Virus record (IMG/VR): IMGVR_UViG_3300009512_000024
Span: 1 to 41,710 of that record
Source of the DNA: a virus
DNA length: 41,710 bases
Direction: 5' to 3' (one strand)
This document shows positions 23,434 through 41,710 of the stretch, one piece after another (positions within the stretch are counted from its first letter, which is position 1; each line of letters opens with the position of its first letter). Made by a program: the position numbers and the translations under genes. The notes below the pieces were generated by a model. The model was not told where the DNA came from, searched no databases, and saw nothing but the letters and a program-made list of their open reading frames with translations.

Positions 23434-25290
23434 TTAATTTCCTTTTAATGTTTTAAGTGTTGGTGTGCTTACTAATCTTCCAGTATTTAAACCTGCAGAA
23501 TTTACACCAGTCGCAATTGTAGTACCTCTATTTCTTTGCGTTGAATTATATTTTTCTTGTTGTATTTTATTATAAAGATTATTTGCTATTCCTTCTTTAT
23601 AGAATACATTAAGAGAACTAATTTTGTTAGCTTCTGGTATTGGCTCATAGAAAGTTCCATTTCTATCTTTCCATCCACCTCTAATAATAGCTAAATCATT
23701 ATTCTCTATAACAACATCACCAAAACTATCTAAACCTAATTGTGGATCTTCATCTTTTTTCAATACTATTTTTTTATTCTCTATTAAGACTCTTTGATCA
23801 GTTATAGGATCTGTTCCATAAACAGGAATAAAATAAAAACCATTTCTAATAGCTTCTTCATTTCTTTGTGATATAAAGAATACATTTACAGAATCTATAC
23901 CTTCAACGTTTTCTACTATAGAAATTATATCTGATCTAGGAATCCTATCTCTTCTATTTACGTTTAAGAAATAGTCATCTAAATTTTTTCTTATTTCAAT
24001 TCTTATTTCATCTTTATTAAAATCTTCTAACCATCTAATAACAATATTCAGTGCATATTTTCTAATAACGGCATCAACTATTCTAGTTTCTGCTGTAACA
24101 ACTTGCCTACCGCTTTTGTTTAGGATCTCATAAGTCATTGCCTTTTCATCATCAGTCATAGTAAATTCTACCTCAGGTACACTAAAATAATCTACATCAC
24201 TAGTAATTTTCTTTTTTACATCAGGAATTAAAAATAAGTAAATAATATTATCATCATTTAAGTATTCATCATTCTTAGTATTGTAAGCATCTATAAAAGA
24301 CCAAAAATCATACTTACTTAAATAGTAAATATAATTATTAGGGTTTGCTAATACAAATGAATTACTTGCATATGGTGCAATTAATCTTGTAAATTGTGGA
24401 TCCTCAGAATCTGAACCAAAACCTGGATTCCTTGTAATATTAATTGATATGATTTCATTTAAATCTACATTTATACCAGAAGAGTCTGTTCCAAATGTTG
24501 AAAACTTCATATCTAATTGTTTTCCTCCAATATTCCCAGCATTACCTCTTGTCTTTATATATGTAATTCTAATTCTTGACCCTAATGCAGGTGGTAAACC
24601 AAATTGATTATTACCAAAGAACACACTTAATCCACCATTTACTCCAGTTTTAACCATTGCAGTCTTTTCACCGTTGTTCATATCATATAGTGAATCTACT
24701 AATTTCCATAATTGTCCATCAACAAAAACCTCAACTAAAAATTGATCAGTAGGTTCTTTTGTGGTTAAATTATAACTCTGTAATGCAAAACCAGTACCTG
24801 TAAATGATTGTTCATCCTTTTCGCCCTGTACTATTTCAACATCAACAAATGTTTTTGTGGTTTTATCTAATCTGATAAAATCTGAATTAAATCGTAAAAA
24901 ATATGTTAAACCATTTTGAGCGATTTCAAAACTTGCGCCGTTTATAATTTGTACATAATCCCCATTAACGAGGCTAGCAGCACTTGTATTTAAACGTAAT
25001 CCAATTATACCTCTTGATGATATTCCTCGTGTAGGATCATGACCAGTTAATCTAGACAATCCGTATATTGATTCTATATTTCTAGCTCTGGATATATTTA
25101 ATTCAGTAAGAGCAGCCTCTATGTAAAAGAATATCATTTCACCTAAATTTGAAACAACTGTTAATATTTGGCCAAACGGCGAGGCAGGTGTAAATACTTC
25201 AACTGCTTGATTGTATGTACGCTGCAGGTATTCAAACGAATCCTGGAATAGCTCGGTGGCACTTATTCTTGTTTTACTAAAAAATGACAT
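23434..25290 (-). CDS. 6: Baseplate wedge protein gp6-like (baseplate J family)
   Basis: The 618-residue protein (T4 gp6 is 660 aa) follows the gp25-like gene after 13 bases, the conserved gp25-gp6 order of contractile tails. Its start is helical, with FQDSFEYLQRTYNQAVEVF. The baseplate-J pattern follows: FGQILTVVSNLGEMIFFYIE, then ARNIESIYGLSRLTGHDPTR and GIIGLRLNTS. Further on come NGASFEIAQNGLTYFL-type beta-domain strands and IRITYIKTRGNAGNIGG. gp6 dimers form the inner ring of the baseplate and drive the switch to the contracted state. The C-terminal 120 residues carry a Lys/Asp-rich region and a polar tail, probably specific to this phage group. The family call is among the firmest here. 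Confidence 0.85.
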   Translation of the reverse strand: MSFFSKTRISATELFQDSFEYLQRTYNQAVEVFTPASPFGQILTVVSNLGEMIFFYIEAALTELNISRARNIESIYGLSRLTGHDPTRGISSRGIIGLRLNTSAASLVNGDYVQIINGASFEIAQNGLTYFLRFNSDFIRLDKTTKTFVDVEIVQGEKDEQSFTGTGFALQSYNLTTKEPTDQFLVEVFVDGQLWKLVDSLYDMNNGEKTAMVKTGVNGGLSVFFGNNQFGLPPALGSRIRITYIKTRGNAGNIGGKQLDMKFSTFGTDSSGINVDLNEIISINITRNPGFGSDSEDPQFTRLIAPYASNSFVLANPNNYIYYLSKYDFWSFIDAYNTKNDEYLNDDNIIYLFLIPDVKKKITSDVDYFSVPEVEFTMTDDEKAMTYEILNKSGRQVVTAETRIVDAVIRKYALNIVIRWLEDFNKDEIRIEIRKNLDDYFLNVNRRDRIPRSDIISIVENVEGIDSVNVFFISQRNEEAIRNGFYFIPVYGTDPITDQRVLIENKKIVLKKDEDPQLGLDSFGDVVIENNDLAIIRGGWKDRNGTFYEPIPEANKISSLNVFYKEGIANNLYNKIQQEKYNSTQRNRGTTIATGVNSAGLNTGRLVSTPTLKTLKGN

Positions 25291-25303: not shown

Positions 25304-25666
25304 TTAAAATAGAGCTCCTAATACTCGTTGTTCATTTACTGATATATCAACTAAGCAACCATCTCTTTCTAGAGTTGAAAAGAAAGTTACTTTTACATCA
25401 ACATCAAATCCAGAAAAATCAGGCAAACAATATGCTGAAATTTGTGAAGTAATTTTATTCTCTATTGTATTTTCATTTAACACTAATGAAAATATTAATT
25501 CATCTAAATTAGCACCTATATCAGGTGCTCCTAATACATCTCCCTTCCTGGTGAATAGGCAATTTTCTATTTTTATAATTAGCTGAGATAAAGAATCGCT
25601 AACCTCAATAGTATCTTCACTAAAGTTAGGTGCTTCTATATCACGACTATAAATATCTCTTATCAT
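25304..25666 (-). CDS. 25: Baseplate wedge protein gp25-like (GPW/gp25 family)
   Basis: The 120-residue protein has the length and layout of the GPW/gp25 family (T4 gp25 is 132 aa). DSLSQLIIKIENCLFTRKGD is the typical helix ending in a turn, followed by VLGAPDIGANLDELIFS, matching the conserved glycine-containing turn and helix. The C-terminal strands DVDVKVTFFS and DISVNEQRVLGALF complete the fold. gp25 clips the wedge core (gp6 and gp53) to the sheath. The lysozyme label often attached to this family is historical; no catalytic site is seen. A late-promoter-like motif lies 16 bases upstream, so it may head the gp25-gp6-gp7 unit. Confidence 0.85.
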   Translation of the reverse strand: MIRDIYSRDIEAPNFSEDTIEVSDSLSQLIIKIENCLFTRKGDVLGAPDIGANLDELIFSLVLNENTIENKITSQISAYCLPDFSGFDVDVKVTFFSTLERDGCLVDISVNEQRVLGALF

Positions 25667-25726: not shown

Positions 25727-26590
25727 TTATCCTGTAAAAAAGTAATCAACACCCTCATCATTTTTAATTTCTTCAACTACTCTATCAACTTCATCTCGGC
25801 CTTCACTTGAAATTAAATCATAATTAATAGTAATATTACCTGGAAGATTAAATGAAAAGGTTCCTAATATTCTGGCTAATTGAATTTTAGCTATTCCTAT
25901 AACATATCTTTGGAAAGCTTCATCCTCAAATAATGCACAATCAGGAATTGTTGAAAATATTTCAAATATAGTAGCTCTATTTGGTAGTTCACCTTGAAAT
26001 CTAAACTTCTTTGTTAATCTATTATAAGTATATGATATTTGTGGTAAAAGAACTTGTCTTGCATTATCCATAAATAATGAATTTACTACATAGTACATTA
26101 AATTTTCACTACCAAGACCTGCACCATAAACATCATTATAAATAAACTTATCTATTGAAAAATCAACATCATCAGCATTAAAGCTCATACTACCAAAACC
26201 ACCATCTTCACCACTAAATCCACCAATTTCAAATACAGCATTAACTGAATATACTCTTGACGGCATTTGAACAACACCTCTAGGATTAGCAATATTAGCT
26301 TTATTGGTTATTGTTTCTTTATCTGTACCACTGCCATAAGGAACTCCTTGTTTAAAGTCAGCTTTAGTTACAGCTCCAGCCGGTAAAGCAATATACATCT
26401 GCTCTACACTATCTTCATAAATTTTATAAAAATATTGTTTTGCTCTTTGTATAATATTGTTTAATTCTTTCTTAGGAACCGTGAATGGTATCTGGCAAGC
26501 AATAGTAAGATCATCATTAATTAATTTTATTAATGCATCTAAACATTCGGCTTCTGCCGGATCATTACAATATGTATTTGTATTAGCCAT
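25727..26590 (-). CDS. Neck protein, gp13-like candidate
   Basis: The 287-residue protein starts with a helical segment (KKELNNIIQRAKQYFYKIYE), followed by a beta region and then a second half with QISYTYNRLTKKFRFQGELP. The most telling part is the C-terminal helix pair: RYVIGIAKIQLARILGTFSF, then NLPGNITINYDLISSEGRDE. Neck proteins annotated gp13 in T4-like cyanophages carry a similar run of tyrosine/arginine strand, amphipathic helix, LPGG/LPGN turn and acidic helix (family memory, not a search). gp13 connects the head to the tail tube. It ends 60 bases before the gp25-like gene and starts 6 bases past the amidoligase stop. A general virion-connector role is likely; the exact gp number is less sure. 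Confidence 0.55.
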   Translation of the reverse strand: MANTNTYCNDPAEAECLDALIKLINDDLTIACQIPFTVPKKELNNIIQRAKQYFYKIYEDSVEQMYIALPAGAVTKADFKQGVPYGSGTDKETITNKANIANPRGVVQMPSRVYSVNAVFEIGGFSGEDGGFGSMSFNADDVDFSIDKFIYNDVYGAGLGSENLMYYVVNSLFMDNARQVLLPQISYTYNRLTKKFRFQGELPNRATIFEIFSTIPDCALFEDEAFQRYVIGIAKIQLARILGTFSFNLPGNITINYDLISSEGRDEVDRVVEEIKNDEGVDYFFTG

Positions 26591-26596
26591 GCTATT

Positions 26597-27889
26597 TTAT
26601 ATTTTTTCTATTTCAATAATTTCAGTATTCTCAAATTTTGCTAATTCAGTAGCCCTACCTTTTCTAAATATACCACCTTCCATATCTCCACTAAAAACCC
26701 CTCTCATACCAAAAACATATGAATCTTTACAACTTACATTTTTACTTACATAAGAATCTTCTATTTTAGAATCGACAACATCAGTTGAGCCAAACAGATT
26801 ACATTCAGTCATTGATGAATTAATTAACTCTGTGCTAAATATATCACAATTTAAAATATTACCTTGTATTTTAGAATCAACAATATCAATACCTTTTATT
26901 TCAAAGCATTTCATTAACTCTGCACCTTTAAGTTGCATTCTACCAGTATCTGCATCGTAATTAACCAAGCCTTCTTTTAATCCAGCTTTAGTTAATAATT
27001 CAAATAACTGTTGTCTCATTTTAGGGTAATACGTTTCAATTATTTGGTCATACGTTTTTAAATCAACCATTAATCTAATTTTAGGAAATTTTCTTTTGAA
27101 TGCTTGATAAGTTTTATATGACTCTACAATACCTTTGTGTTGTTCTAAGATAACATCTAGTTTTTTAAGATCATCTTTACTGTAAACTGGATTAGCCAAA
27201 CTCTCATATAAAGATACAACAAAATGTTCTGTCATATTCATTATGGTATTATATTTCTTTTCATAGTCCTTACCACCTAAATATCTAAATTCAATATAAT
27301 TCTTAGGTATTTTAGAAAAGTTTACGCCATAATATTTTTCTGACACAAACATGTAATTCTTCCATGAAATTCTTTCAGGAGAAGGTTGTGTCATTCCACT
27401 TAATGGTACAATAAATTTTATAGATTTAGCATAAACAGAATCTCTTCTGTCTGGGAACGCTTCATAGACAGCATTTTCATTGAAGTTAAGAACAAACTTA
27501 CCAATATCTAAAGATGATACATTAGTAGGAGATCCTAATTTTTTTCCATCAAAGGCTACATTAATATGTATAGAACATCTGTCATTGGTAGATCCATTTT
27601 CTCTAATCCATTTTAGAGTCTTTGCAATAATAAGTTTAGATTCAACAAAAGGCATTGGTCCTGTTACTAATTCAATCATCCCAGATCCACCAGAATTATC
27701 TGGTTCTAATTTGAAAATTTCATCGCTAGGTACAAATTCACTGTGCGCCTTTTCCTCGACTCTTATTTGCTTATTTAGAGCTTGAGATAGGTCTCTCTTA
27801 ACTTCATCCATTCCTTCATTGGCAAAGAATTCAAATTCTAATCCAATCTTGGATGCATATATTGCATTTAGCTGTTCGTTAGTATACAT
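26597..27889 (-). CDS. Amidoligase-like enzyme (glutamine-synthetase fold) with C-terminal beta-helix
   Basis: The 430-residue protein shows the motif series of the Amidoligase_2 type, a glutamine-synthetase-like fold. KIGLEFEFF carries E18 and E20; GGSGMIELVTGPMPF carries E73 before the TGP turn; DRCSIHINVAF carries H108 and N110; KNYIEFRYLGGKDYEKK carries E200 and R202. Relatives are predicted to form amide or peptide bonds using ATP, binding Mg through the acidic residues. Residues 220-310 are mainly helical. Residues about 327-412 have short periodic hydrophobic and Cys/Ser/Asp repeats (GNILNCDIFSTELINSSMTE, then NLFGSTDVVDSKIEDSYV), a pentapeptide-like right-handed beta-helix. Substrate is unknown: a virion protein, a host protein or a cell-wall peptide are options. 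It lies between the S1-like and neck-like genes. Its start is one of the few with an SD-like AGGAA. Confidence 0.7.
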   Translation of the reverse strand: MYTNEQLNAIYASKIGLEFEFFANEGMDEVKRDLSQALNKQIRVEEKAHSEFVPSDEIFKLEPDNSGGSGMIELVTGPMPFVESKLIIAKTLKWIRENGSTNDRCSIHINVAFDGKKLGSPTNVSSLDIGKFVLNFNENAVYEAFPDRRDSVYAKSIKFIVPLSGMTQPSPERISWKNYMFVSEKYYGVNFSKIPKNYIEFRYLGGKDYEKKYNTIMNMTEHFVVSLYESLANPVYSKDDLKKLDVILEQHKGIVESYKTYQAFKRKFPKIRLMVDLKTYDQIIETYYPKMRQQLFELLTKAGLKEGLVNYDADTGRMQLKGAELMKCFEIKGIDIVDSKIQGNILNCDIFSTELINSSMTECNLFGSTDVVDSKIEDSYVSKNVSCKDSYVFGMRGVFSGDMEGGIFRKGRATELAKFENTEIIEIEKI

Positions 27890-27930: not shown

Positions 27931-29070
27931 TTATACTATGTTCATAGTAATCTTACGATCACTTACATTAACACTCCCGATTTTAATATCAATAACATCG
28001 CCTTTTGTTAGGTTTGCTGCTTTTAGTTTAGATTTATGAATTAAACCACTTATTCCTTTTTCTAATTCAACAAATGCACCATAAGAAGTTATTTTAGTAA
28101 CTGTTCCTTTTGTGATCATCATAGGTTTATATTTTTCATCAACACCATCCCATATATCAATCTTAGGACCTAACTGACTTAATATAATCTTTTTCTCTGA
28201 AATAATTTCTTTAGCCCAGAATGTTATTTCATCACCAGGATTTATTGCTTTATTATCTAATGCTCTTTGTGTAGCTTCATCTAATTCAACTCTAGGTATT
28301 AAACCAGTTAAACAATCATCAAATTGAGCAAACACACCAAATTTAGTAGACCCAGTTACAAAACCAGTTCTAACTTCTTTTATATTTTCTTCTAATTCAA
28401 AAATTCTAGTTGGAATCATTGTTCTTAAATATTCTCTATGGGATACTACAATTGTATCTTTTTCATTTGAGAATGTAATTGGCATTACAACGATCTCTTT
28501 ACCTACTAATGAATTAAAATCATGTAATTTATTTAAACCACCTAAAGAACCTGGCATAAAACATTTAATTCCTGCAACATCTACCCAATAACCACCATGA
28601 ATTAATTCTTTAACTAAACCAGTAAAACCAACCTCCTTATTTCCAATAGCATCTTTTATTTCTTGTAATTTAACCTCCATTATTGCATCACTAATTGAAG
28701 CAATAACATCTCCAGTGTTTGAAGTTTTAATTTTAACATCAATTTCTATACCAACTTGTAATTGCTCAACAATATAATCTGGTTCTTTTAATAAAGAACA
28801 AAATGCTGTATGTTTAGATTGTGTATCAATAAGTGCTCTTGTCCTATCAGCAGAAATAAAAGTAATTTCACCTCTAGTTGTATATGATATTCTATCTTCT
28901 GTTAATTGAGTTTTTTGTAAAATAGGATCTGTAAGATTATACATTCCTAAAACATCAGCTGCATAGTGTTCATTACACATTAGCTTTGTTCCGTGTGGAA
29001 CTTGTACCTTTACTGTCTTAGTGTCAAATGGATCATCACTTAATTGGATTGTGATTTCTTGTTCGGTCAT
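27931..29070 (-). CDS. S1-like RNA-binding protein with four S1 domains
   Basis: The 379-residue protein carries four OB-fold S1 repeats at about residues 63-128, 146-212, 233-301 and 318-379. The third and fourth are the clearest: TGFVTGSTKFGVFAQFDDC leading to LTGLIPRVEL, and KGTVTKITSYGAFVELEKGI leading to SGLIHKSKL, both matching the canonical G-x-V-x-x-I-x-x-[FY]-G-x-F-V pattern. The second has a shortened loop (FTGLVKELIHGGYWVDVAGI). Bacterial S1 has up to six repeats and helps bring mRNA to the 30S subunit; Bacteroidota rely little on Shine-Dalgarno pairing. A phage copy could favour phage messages, act in RNA protection or support replication. The N-terminal 60 residues lack a clear S1 fold. 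The gene has its own promoter-like motif and is flanked by structural genes. Confidence 0.82.
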   Translation of the reverse strand: MTEQEITIQLSDDPFDTKTVKVQVPHGTKLMCNEHYAADVLGMYNLTDPILQKTQLTEDRISYTTRGEITFISADRTRALIDTQSKHTAFCSLLKEPDYIVEQLQVGIEIDVKIKTSNTGDVIASISDAIMEVKLQEIKDAIGNKEVGFTGLVKELIHGGYWVDVAGIKCFMPGSLGGLNKLHDFNSLVGKEIVVMPITFSNEKDTIVVSHREYLRTMIPTRIFELEENIKEVRTGFVTGSTKFGVFAQFDDCLTGLIPRVELDEATQRALDNKAINPGDEITFWAKEIISEKKIILSQLGPKIDIWDGVDEKYKPMMITKGTVTKITSYGAFVELEKGISGLIHKSKLKAANLTKGDVIDIKIGSVNVSDRKITMNIV

Positions 29071-29178: not shown

Positions 29179-29778
29179 TTATGATAAACCTACCCATGGA
29201 AAAACATAAGGTAAAGGTGGTACACTTCCTGTGACACCTGTCCAAGTACCGCTCACTGTTGTTAAATGTTTTTTAAATGCGTCATTTAATGCATTGCATA
29301 AATCGTTTGTATTATTTAATTTAAATGCATTACCAATATCAGCTTGTAGTGGCATTATACTCCCACCATTTAGAATAGGATTTAAGGTAGGAACTACGCC
29401 AGGTGGTGGTGGTGGTAATGGTGACATTTGGCCACCGGTCCAATAATCAACTATAGACTGGGCTGCATCTTTCCATACATAATCAGGTATTTCTTGATTC
29501 CATTCTCTAGGAGCAGAAAAAGGTTCCCACGTTACATTATCAGTAGACCATTTCTCAAGTTCTGTAAATGATGATTCAAAACCTATTTGTATGCCAGCAG
29601 CAGTACCTACTGTAATTGGTGGTGTTCCTCCGTATGAAGTTTGAACAGCAATAGCAGCAGCTACATAATTTATTCCAATTTGTGTAGCAAATGGTACGTA
29701 AGAATATGGCTCTGCACCAGTGCTACTGAGTAACCATGCCTTTAATACGCCAATAATAGGTAAAGGAATCCAAGGCAT
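29179..29778 (-). CDS. Spike-adjacent virion protein (199 aa), unknown
   Basis: A 199-residue protein joined to the gp5-like gene by a TAATG overlap, so the two are probably translated together. It starts MPWIPLPIIGVLKAWLLSST, then has a weakly hydrophobic Ala/Gly-rich segment (INYVAAAIAVQ) and a proline run (SPLPPPPPGVVP at about residues 118-129) that likely forms a rigid linker. A polar helix (LNNTNDLCNALNDAFKKHL) and an aromatic end (YVFPWVGLS) follow. I do not recognise the family. Coupling to the spike gene suggests a hub, spike-associated or chaperone-like part. The hydrophobic N-terminus might instead indicate a membrane-contacting factor. Confidence 0.5.
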   Translation of the reverse strand: MPWIPLPIIGVLKAWLLSSTGAEPYSYVPFATQIGINYVAAAIAVQTSYGGTPPITVGTAAGIQIGFESSFTELEKWSTDNVTWEPFSAPREWNQEIPDYVWKDAAQSIVDYWTGGQMSPLPPPPPGVVPTLNPILNGGSIMPLQADIGNAFKLNNTNDLCNALNDAFKKHLTTVSGTWTGVTGSVPPLPYVFPWVGLS

Positions 29779-30689
29779 TAGTCAGTAGTATTTTTTGTGC
29801 TTAAGTATGTACTATTTTTAAATGGTGGTAATGGAGTTCCAGTCACACCGCCTGGCGCAGGATGAACATGAGAGTCAAATAAACTTTTGAATGTATCACC
29901 TTTAACTACAGATTCAGCAGCTGCTTCACCTAATTTAATTCTTGGTGAATTAACATGAGTTTCTCCTGTTGCGTTTATCTTAGCATCAATACAATTAATT
30001 ATAGTATTAGCATCTGCATTAATAACAGTATCAGCTCCACTATTAATTGTAAATTGAGCAGAATGAGTAAATGATATATTTCCATCATTAAGCATTACAA
30101 TAGTATCACCATTTGGATTTATTATTTCTATTGAATTATCTGGCTTTATGTTTACTGTAGTTGGTCCTACTGCCGTGGCATAGTCCATCATTATTCCTTT
30201 TTCCTCAGTAAAGAAAACCTTAACATGTTCTCCTTCTCTATCATTGGTTACTTCAGTACCATTCTCTCCACCAGTTAAACCGAATGCAGTATCATAAATA
30301 AGTACATGTGAGTTTTGGTATGATGCTTCTATTTCAGCCTTTGTTTCATCTGAAGGATAAATGTTTTCGTGATAGATTGGTTGATAAAAATTTCCATTAT
30401 CAAAAGTAAGCCTAACAATAGATCCTATCTTTGGTATTTCAAATTTACCACTACCTGTAGCACTACCACCATACATTAACTGATGTGGTCTTGACCACGG
30501 TAATGAAGCAGTTGGAAGTTTATAATCGCTATTAGGATCTTCAGGATCTACGCGATCATCCATTTTTCCGTATACTCTTATCTTGCATCTTCCTTCAAAG
30601 ATATCATCAGCAGTATCTTCTACAATACCTACCCATTGAGTAGATCTTAAATCATCTGCATTAAAATTTGCTGGATTAACTTTTCCCAT
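29778..30689 (-). CDS. 5: gp5-like baseplate spike, OB-fold plus beta-helix, no lysozyme domain
   Basis: The 303-residue protein has an OB-fold at about residues 17-110 (STQWVGIVEDTADDIFEGRC, then IPKIGSIVRLTF). A beta-helical shaft covers about 175-255, with repeats such as INSGADTVINADANTIINC. The tip is SHVHPAPGGVTGTPLPP, with H274 and H276. An HxH tip that binds iron is known from P2 gpV and similar spikes, so this spike may cap itself rather than use a separate PAAR tip. T4 gp5 (575 aa) has a lysozyme between OB-fold and shaft; here only about 65 residues lie between them, with no lysozyme motif. The spike pierces the outer membrane and plugs the hub. It overlaps both neighbours by one base (TAATG). 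The family call is strong. Confidence 0.85.
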   Translation of the reverse strand: MGKVNPANFNADDLRSTQWVGIVEDTADDIFEGRCKIRVYGKMDDRVDPEDPNSDYKLPTASLPWSRPHQLMYGGSATGSGKFEIPKIGSIVRLTFDNGNFYQPIYHENIYPSDETKAEIEASYQNSHVLIYDTAFGLTGGENGTEVTNDREGEHVKVFFTEEKGIMMDYATAVGPTTVNIKPDNSIEIINPNGDTIVMLNDGNISFTHSAQFTINSGADTVINADANTIINCIDAKINATGETHVNSPRIKLGEAAAESVVKGDTFKSLFDSHVHPAPGGVTGTPLPPFKNSTYLSTKNTTD

Positions 30690-39464: not shown

Positions 39465-41710
39465 TTAGCATGGATCTTGTTGTAATTTAATTGTTATTGT
39501 GTAACCTTTAGGTTCTGTTGTAGTAGCTGACAATGCTTTGACAGATAATGTATCTCCACCAGTCACCTGAGTAGATCCTATTATTGAAAATGTTGGATTA
39601 ACCTCAGCTCGCTGAGCTGTATGCTGGTAAGTAAAGGTGCTCAAAACATTAGAGTAATTTTGCGCATCCCTTATTAATACTTGATAATTAACATTCGCGT
39701 TCTCGGTAGCAGCTCCATAAGCTGCAGTGATTTGACAAACATACCAATCCTGTAGATCTATAGGTATTGTAATAAATGCGTCTTCCCAATCATTACCATT
39801 AGCTAAATAAGTAGTAATAGGTGTATTTGCAGGAATAGCATTAATTCCAATAAGTTCATATGATGTAGCTCCTGTTGGACCTTGTGGTCCTTGTGGACCT
39901 GGTGTTGTTGATGTTGGTCCTTGTGGTCCTTGGTTACCTGTTGGTCCTTGTGGACCTTGCGGCCCTGGATTTACTGATGCATTACCCTGTGGTCCTTGTG
40001 GTCCTTGTGGACCTTGAATACCTGGTCCTTGTGGTCCTTGTGGACCTGGTGTTGTTGATGTTGGTCCTTGTGGTCCTTGTACACCATCTGGTCCTTGTGG
40101 TCCTTGTGGACCTGGTGTTGTTGATGTTGGTCCTTGTGGTCCTTGTACACCATCTGGTCCTTGTGGTCCTTGTACACCATCTGGTCCTTGTGGTCCTTGT
40201 GGACCTGGTGTTGTTGATGTTGGTCCTTGTGGACCTTGTACACCTTCATCACCATATGCAGTAAAACTAACAGTGAACATTGTAGCATTTGGAAAATTAT
40301 TGGTATCTGTAAATACTGTTCCAAGCTGAACCGCATAAACATTAGTTGCAGCAGCAAAGGATATATTAGTTACTAATCCATTTACAAGGTAAGTATTTCC
40401 ATCTGCTGATATTGAAAGTGCACCAAACCCTGTTGTAGTTTTACCTGTATCATTCCATGAATCAATCCAGTTTGTTTGATCTCCAGAGTTTGCAGAAGTT
40501 TTACTAAGGTATAGTGTTTCAACACCACCTCCTGTATTGTCATAGTAAAATAAACCAGATCCAGGTGATACTGTTGCTGCAACAGATTTCCATTCTGGGA
40601 AGTTATTTGGACCTTGTGGACCTTGTGGTCCTTGGATACCATCAGGTCCTTGTGGACCTTGTGGTCCTTGTATACCGTCTACTCCTTGTGGTCCTTGTGG
40701 TCCTTGGATACCTGGACCTTGTGGTCCCTGTGGTCCTTGTATACCATCTACACCTTGTGGTCCTTGTGGACCTTGAATACCATCAACACCTTGTGGACCT
40801 TGTGGTCCTTGTATACCGTCTACTCCTTGTGGTCCTTGTGGTCCTTGTATACCGTCTACACCTTGAGGTCCTTGTGGTCCTTGTATACCGTCTACACCTT
40901 GTGGACCTTGTGGTCCTTGTACACCTATTGGTCCTTGTGGGCCTTGTGGGCCTTGAATACCAGTTATTCCACCTGGAACAAATAAAATATTTACATCATC
41001 ACCACTACCAAATATTGTTCCTTGAGGATTACTAATTGTATATGTCCAATAAGTACTATTATCAGTACTAGCAGTAACAAACGCTGTAAATATGTTTGAA
41101 TCAGTTCCATCAGATGGTCTAATATAAATTATACCTGTAGAATTAGTCTGTGGGAATGAATCTAACCATTCCTCCATATTTGTTCCTAAGCGATTGGTAT
41201 CATGAATAGAAATGCTAGCTATAGATCCTACAGTTGCATTATCAAATGATACTTTACCATTCCCAGGATCTCCTGATGTTGATACTGAAAAATCATAAGG
41301 TACACCACCAGTTTCACCTTGAGCACCAGTATTACCTTGTGGTCCTTGTGGTCCTTGTATACCATCAACACCTTGTGGTCCTTGTGGACCTTGTATACCA
41401 TCAACACCTTGTGGTCCTTGTGGACCTTGAATACCGTCTACACCTTGTGGACCTTGTGGACCCTGTACACCATCAACACCTTGTGGTCCTTGTGGACCTT
41501 GAATACCATCAACACCTTGTGGTCCTTGTGGTCCTTGTATACCGTCTATACCTTGTGGTCCTTGTGGTCCTTGTACACCAATCAAACCTTGTGGTCCTTG
41601 TGGACCTTGTATACCTATTGGTCCTTGTGGACCTTGTACTCCAATTAAACCTTGTGGTCCTTGTGGACCTTGAATACCATCAACACCTTGTGGTCCTTGT
41701 GGACCTTGTA
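39465..41710 (-). CDS. Collagen-like fibre protein with duplicated globular domains (5' end outside window)
   Basis: The frame stays open to position 41710, so the true start lies beyond the window; a TTG at 41583-41585 is only an internal codon. Three Gly-X-Y blocks, mostly [12 protein letters not shown] repeats, are separated by two related globular domains and end in a C-terminal domain. Domain 1 (about 41300-40976) has [10 protein letters not shown] and [18 protein letters not shown]. Domain 2 (about 40606-40250) has [10 protein letters not shown] and [18 protein letters not shown], so it is a diverged duplicate. The C-terminal domain (39868-39465) ends with [12 protein letters not shown]. 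Collagen-like triple helices make rigid trimeric fibres on phages, with globular domains as spacers or binding sites. It is followed by the LamG-like gene. Repeat number may vary by recombination. Confidence 0.85.
39868..40250 (-). repeat. Collagen-coding repeat block C ([10 protein letters not shown] type)
   Basis: Gly-X-Y coding DNA in which [14 protein letters not shown] recurs. On the plus strand the segment GGTGTTGTTGATG begins near 39901, 40048, 40114 and 40207, an irregular tandem arrangement. It differs from the other two blocks in its Thr/Ser-Thr-Thr-Pro interruptions. Confidence 0.8.
40607..40975 (-). repeat. Collagen-coding repeat block B ([12 protein letters not shown] type)
   Basis: Near-perfect 36-base units coding [12 protein letters not shown], with minor synonymous changes. 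It links globular domain 1 to domain 2. Units vary between GVDG, GPDG and GPIG at the third triplet. Confidence 0.85.
41300..41710 (-). repeat. Collagen-coding repeat block A, running off the window
   Basis: The same 36-base type of unit as block B, with GLIGVQ and GPIGIQ variants near 41580-41660 and a [11 protein letters not shown] end before domain 1. The block continues beyond 41710, so its full length is unknown. Confidence 0.85.

Follow-up and report, generated by a model that had tools for sequence, protein, structure and literature searches.

An amidoligase-like protein fused to a pentapeptide beta-helix in the neck and baseplate gene cluster of huge phages

Background

What would an amidoligase-like enzyme joined to a beta-helix be doing among the neck and baseplate genes of a phage? 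The question is raised by a gene at positions 26597..27889 (minus strand) of IMG/VR record IMGVR_UViG_3300009512_000024, of which the whole stretch of 41,710 nucleotides analysed here is called 'the window'. The gene has an ATG start and encodes a protein of 430 amino acids. A first-pass annotation, made from the letters alone, had described it as a glutamine synthetase (GS)-like amidoligase fused to a beta-helix and located between S1-like and neck genes, and had suggested that a peptide-tagging step in virion assembly would be a new system. The enzyme class, the fusion and the S1-to-neck location are all backed by the profile, structure and synteny comparisons given below. To speak of a 'new system' went too far, since amidoligases are widespread in phages and have already been described. 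Those that we found in the literature have predicted roles and no demonstrated substrate.

Fold and class of the catalytic domain

The AlphaFold2 model of the fusion protein (pLDDT 91, pTM 0.85) comprises three parts: a GS-fold catalytic domain (residues 1-230; 27200..27889, minus strand), delimited from the model, Foldseek and hhalign comparison with known phage amidoligases; a helical connecting segment defined by the secondary structure of the model (residues 231-305; 26975..27199, minus strand); and a pentapeptide-type beta-helix (residues 306-412; 26654..26974, minus strand), supported by the model, an in-phase repeat count and Pentapeptide_4 matches in relatives.

Used alone against Pfam and PDB sequences, the window protein gave no useful match, including none to PF12224 (Amidoligase_2), and relatives and profiles were needed to class it. 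The PF12224 cut-off of 22 bits is exceeded by a relative 74% identical to the window protein (L101, 23.2 bits) and by a distant homologue in Agrobacterium phage Atu_ph07 (30.2 bits). Against ten annotated phage amidoligases combined into a profile, hhalign aligned 203 columns (Prob 97.1, E 4.9e-11), bringing GxExE, D-x-S, the following E, H-x-H/N, R, Y..N and E-x-R into register.

The model retains a GS-like fold. Its top PDB matches are glutamine synthetases (Foldseek E 8e-5, prob 1.00), with a poor superposition (TM about 0.3). Among viral models the best match is A0A6J5PQ40, followed by many proteins named amidoligase enzyme, with E down to 1e-11. A0A6J5PQ40, a 439 amino acid protein of an uncultured Caudovirales phage with no assigned function, has the same two-domain architecture (TM 0.90, 25% identity). 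Membership of the GS-like amidoligases is well supported by these profiles and by the predicted structure, and from it we infer catalysis.

Conservation of the catalytic motifs

The residues picked out in the first-pass annotation (E18, E20, E73, H108, N110, E200 and R202) all occur at the positions given there in the 430 amino acid ORF, and relatives keep them. All motif coordinates that follow are on the minus strand. E18-x-E20, in the first strand (G-x-E-x-E; 27830..27838), aligns with the GxExE of known amidoligases and is invariant in a non-redundant alignment of 41 members, as are D64, S66, E73, R148, Y153, N190, E200 and R202. In the same alignment H108 is kept in 37/41 (Gln in the other 4) and N110 in 38/41 (Ser in 3). 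A larger set of 132 distinct homologues shows D64-x-S66 (EPDxS; 27692..27700), E73 (ELVTGP; 27671..27673), R148...Y153 (27431..27448) and E200-F-R202 (27284..27292) in every member, while both the histidine and the asparagine of H108-x-N110 (27560..27568), the counterpart of H-V-H in known phage amidoligases, are found in 128/132. All 12 sites (those invariant in the 41 plus H108 and N110) are present in 125 of the 132; two of the seven homologues lacking the full set are sequences that are incomplete at the start.

The H-x-N variants are Q-x-S in three homologues (L203, L216 and L217), Q-x-N in one (L229) and H-x-S in one (L134). Metal binding is possibly altered in these, and the four with Gln at H108, three of which also have Ser at N110, count against the protein being an active ligase. 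Compared with close relatives, dN/dS is about 0.04-0.08 in the GS domain, indicating strong purifying selection on the catalytic part, and 0.10-0.16 in the helix.

The pentapeptide beta-helix

The pentapeptide-like stretch noted previously was confirmed by the count of in-phase units, whose longest run in residues 322-412 is 5 (reached by 0.16% of shuffles), and by short, regularly spaced strands from residue 334 to 413 of the AlphaFold2 model. For comparison, the longest run in residues 1-230 is 2 (93% of shuffles). Several relatives have in-phase runs of 8-12 (0 of 1000 shuffles). Pentapeptide_4 hits in relatives reach E values as low as 5.6e-6, but the best scores miss the curated Pfam cut-offs (26.8 versus 38 bits for Pentapeptide_4 and 17.3 versus 20.2 for Pentapeptide). 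The repeat region is present in all 132 distinct homologues except that of Atu_ph07. The net charge of the helix, counted from its residues and not mapped on a surface, is -5 in the window protein, with a median of -4 over 41 homologues.

Gene neighbourhood

That the gene lies in a phage structural cluster was borne out by PHROG matches to head-tail adaptor, baseplate wedge and hub proteins, and by a Pfam match for the S1 protein. All of these genes are on the minus strand. Upstream of the fusion are a gene for a baseplate hub-like protein (29778..30689; phrog_37871 E 2.7e-13, phrog_430 E 1.8e-10) and one for an S1-domain protein of 379 amino acids (27931..29070; PF00575 E 1e-16), which apparently contains four S1 repeats (two by Pfam, the others by eye). 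Downstream, at a distance of 6 bp, is a neck or head-tail adaptor gene (25727..26590; phrog_211 E 4.8e-12), followed by those for a gp25-like baseplate wedge subunit (25304..25666; phrog_43 E 4.4e-4, and synteny) and a gp6-like baseplate wedge subunit (23434..25290; phrog_219 E 6e-24).

Within the window's clade the genes for hub, S1, amidoligase, neck, gp25 and gp6 follow one another in a near-constant order. In about 180 loci (some of which are the same contig twice) the amidoligase gene lies upstream of the neck gene with a gap of 1-25 bp, and in most loci about 40 bp separate it from the S1 gene. Phages of 630-735 kb keep the gene in a broken order, where it no longer adjoins the neck gene.

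The neck protein, whose model is of moderate quality (pLDDT 70), shows a weak match to the amidoligase PHROG 2443 (E 0.047). When conserved C-terminal tails of the neighbouring gene products were inspected for a tagging signature, that of the neck protein, EEIKGDEGVDxFF, proved conserved within the window's clade. It was rejected as a signature: the acidic GDEG part is lost in the larger rearranged genomes, which keep the amidoligase, and we therefore claim no substrate from the tail.

Elsewhere in the window, also on the minus strand, are genes for a phage-encoded GroES-type co-chaperonin (287-571; PF00166, E 4.8e-14), for a collagen-repeat tail fibre protein (39465-41585; PF01391 E 1.5e-39; its TTG start was called mechanically and the gene may reach the window edge), and for a protein of 118 amino acids starting MKTFKDYLTEE (1324-1680). 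In 58 kb of LR756502.1 (L267, L268 and L269), about a dozen of 84 ORFs share an N-terminal leader that fits the pattern M[KR][HYF][ILV]xx[FY]xxFE, which may mark packaged or ejected proteins. We take both this leader and the start of the 118 amino acid window protein to resemble the capsid-targeting leader of T4.

Distribution among huge phages

A first scan of the viral collection gave 61 loci; two alignment-led scans gave at least 567 and at least 483 confirmed relatives, of which 80 from each were kept. Full-length homologues occur in huge phage records of 462, 635, 636, 642 and 735 kb, and the set of distinct homologues covers phages of 460-735 kb with identities down to about 30%. Both the huge-phage amidoligase fusion and its position beside neck and baseplate genes are genuine and conserved over a wide range of phages. 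One 642 kb phage also encodes a second protein of this kind, a 364 amino acid amidoligase-like paralogue that has no helix (L262:1558-2652, at about 209 kb of LR756502.1; profile E 3.8e-5), starting MKHIIKFSLFEE. It adjoins genes for a SET-domain protein (PF00856 E 2.3e-11) and, judged by eye, an isochorismatase-like protein.

Among annotated, cultured phages the closest relative that we found is AUZ94978 of Atu_ph07 (Amidoligase enzyme A0A2L0UZM1 in BFVD). It has the same motifs (hhalign E 2e-13) and differs in having no C-terminal beta-helix, a long N-terminal insert and no adjoining neck-gp25-gp6 run.

No amidoligase fusion was detected in Lak phages A1 and B1, both of which encode an S1 protein and a homologue of gp6, nor in Tenacibaculum pT24, Sphingomonas PAU and Flavobacterium MaF61, which have a related gp6. 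All were searched by reading through stops, which addresses the possibility that the gene is hidden in the Lak phages by alternative stop codons. Since the Lak phages have gp6 and S1 without this gene, it would be an accessory modifier that is not required to build such virions. One large phage group conserves the fusion as an accessory, and it is not a universal assembly factor.

Possible functions

Our preferred reading, a tentative one to which we give slightly less than an even chance, is that the protein is a late, accessory, ATP- and metal-dependent carboxylate-amine ligase of the GS-like type. It would most probably act on a protein that accumulates late, joining an amine (of an amino acid, polyamine or peptide) to a carboxylate of its target, and the C-terminal beta-helix would form a rigid arm for docking or for self-association and oligomerisation. 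Expression is presumed to be late and translationally coupled to that of the neck and baseplate genes. The target could belong to the virion, to the assembly apparatus or to the neighbouring S1/ribosomal machinery. The modification would be accessory, and particle building would proceed without the ligase step: the absence of the gene from Lak phages and its separation from the neck gene in phages of 630-735 kb weigh against an essential step in virion assembly. A more specific version, in which the enzyme is positioned by its pentapeptide arm and conjugates a peptide, polyamine or amino acid to a protein of the neck or tail of huge phages, or to one that is co-packaged, is unlikely. If true, it would mean that a protein-conjugating modification is built into a phage morphogenesis operon, for which we know of no precedent.

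The best of the alternatives, which we consider rather unlikely, is that the enzyme behaves as those of small phages, making amide bonds, gamma-glutamyl or other, within peptidoglycan peptides or a small metabolite, with its place in the tail cluster setting only the timing. The outcome would be an altered host wall or protection against superinfection. The superfamily and motifs are indeed shared with known phage amidoligases, whose cassettes have been interpreted as modifying peptidoglycan (PMC5498523; PMC10580990). The usual GGACT/AIG2 cyclotransferase counterpart is present in 4/7 carrier genomes, away from the fusion gene, and in 0/5 of the non-carriers tested. These numbers are too small for a conclusion, and the co-occurrence is suggestive of gamma-glutamyl chemistry while being statistically weak; it fits a small-molecule or wall role equally well as a protein substrate. 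Conversely, the GATase_6 partner was found in 0/7 huge genomes, the fusion gene is tightly coupled to neck and baseplate genes and not to a transcription or replication region, and the known cassette proteins that we examined have no pentapeptide arm. Matches to COOH-NH2_lig (PF14395) were also found in 0/7 huge genomes, but control genomes gave none either. The lack of a GATase partner, the S1/neck location in many huge-phage loci and the docking-type repeat together focus attention on a late protein target, as in the preferred reading.

The second alternative is that the enzyme modifies the translation machinery in concert with the adjacent S1 protein, much as ribosomal protein S6 is lengthened by RimK-type ligases. 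Almost every locus of the window's clade has an S1 gene immediately upstream of the fusion, and S1 proteins are encoded by 7/7 huge genomes with the fusion and not by Atu_ph07, whose distant homologue is helix-less. We nevertheless regard this as improbable: Lak phages have S1 and no amidoligase, and phages of 630-735 kb carry the two genes at widely separated positions.

Finally, a structural or ejected virion component that keeps the GS fold without catalysis is very improbable, given the near-complete catalytic set down to about 30% identity (unexpected in a scaffold) and the lack of the gene in Lak phages, whose gp6 is homologous, even though the gene lies in a structural cluster and its Atu_ph07 homologue is two genes from the portal, which by gene order should place it within CDS 170-215, a region rich in virion proteins (PMC6102473).

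Comparison with known systems

Pentapeptide repeats are shared with MfpA and Qnr: the window helix has the five-residue repeat with a small residue at i-2 and a hydrophobic one at i, and a weak Foldseek match to MfpA (2bm5). It differs in being short, fused to an enzyme and without a strongly negative charge. A gyrase or DNA-mimic role was rejected because a net charge of only about -5 is not strongly acidic.

PafA and Dop, the Pup ligase and deamidase, are GS-fold enzymes that act on proteins. They were outside the best 50 Foldseek fold matches listed for the window model.

The closest comparison is with the phage amidoligases themselves, which are common (a single query matched 127 phage records). 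Known relatives fall in PF12224 and in PHROGs 2443 and 7469, for example gp7 of Pseudomonas phage PA11, gp9 of Salinivibrio phage CW02 and gp98 of Arthrobacter phage Salgado. The window family shares with them the GS fold and the motif series already described, has H-x-N in place of H-V-H, lacks their invariant Cys, and has a pentapeptide beta-helix. Amidoligases of the podovirus type share a neighbourhood close to replication genes with those for GATase, ATP-grasp, COOH-NH2 ligase and AIG2/GGACT, whereas the fusion gene sits in the neck and baseplate cluster and not among early or replication genes. In the titles and abstracts of the papers searched we found no description of an amidoligase-pentapeptide fusion, which is no proof of novelty. 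Phage amidoligases as such are already known; what is new is their fused form, placed among structural genes and lacking the GATase that is their usual partner.
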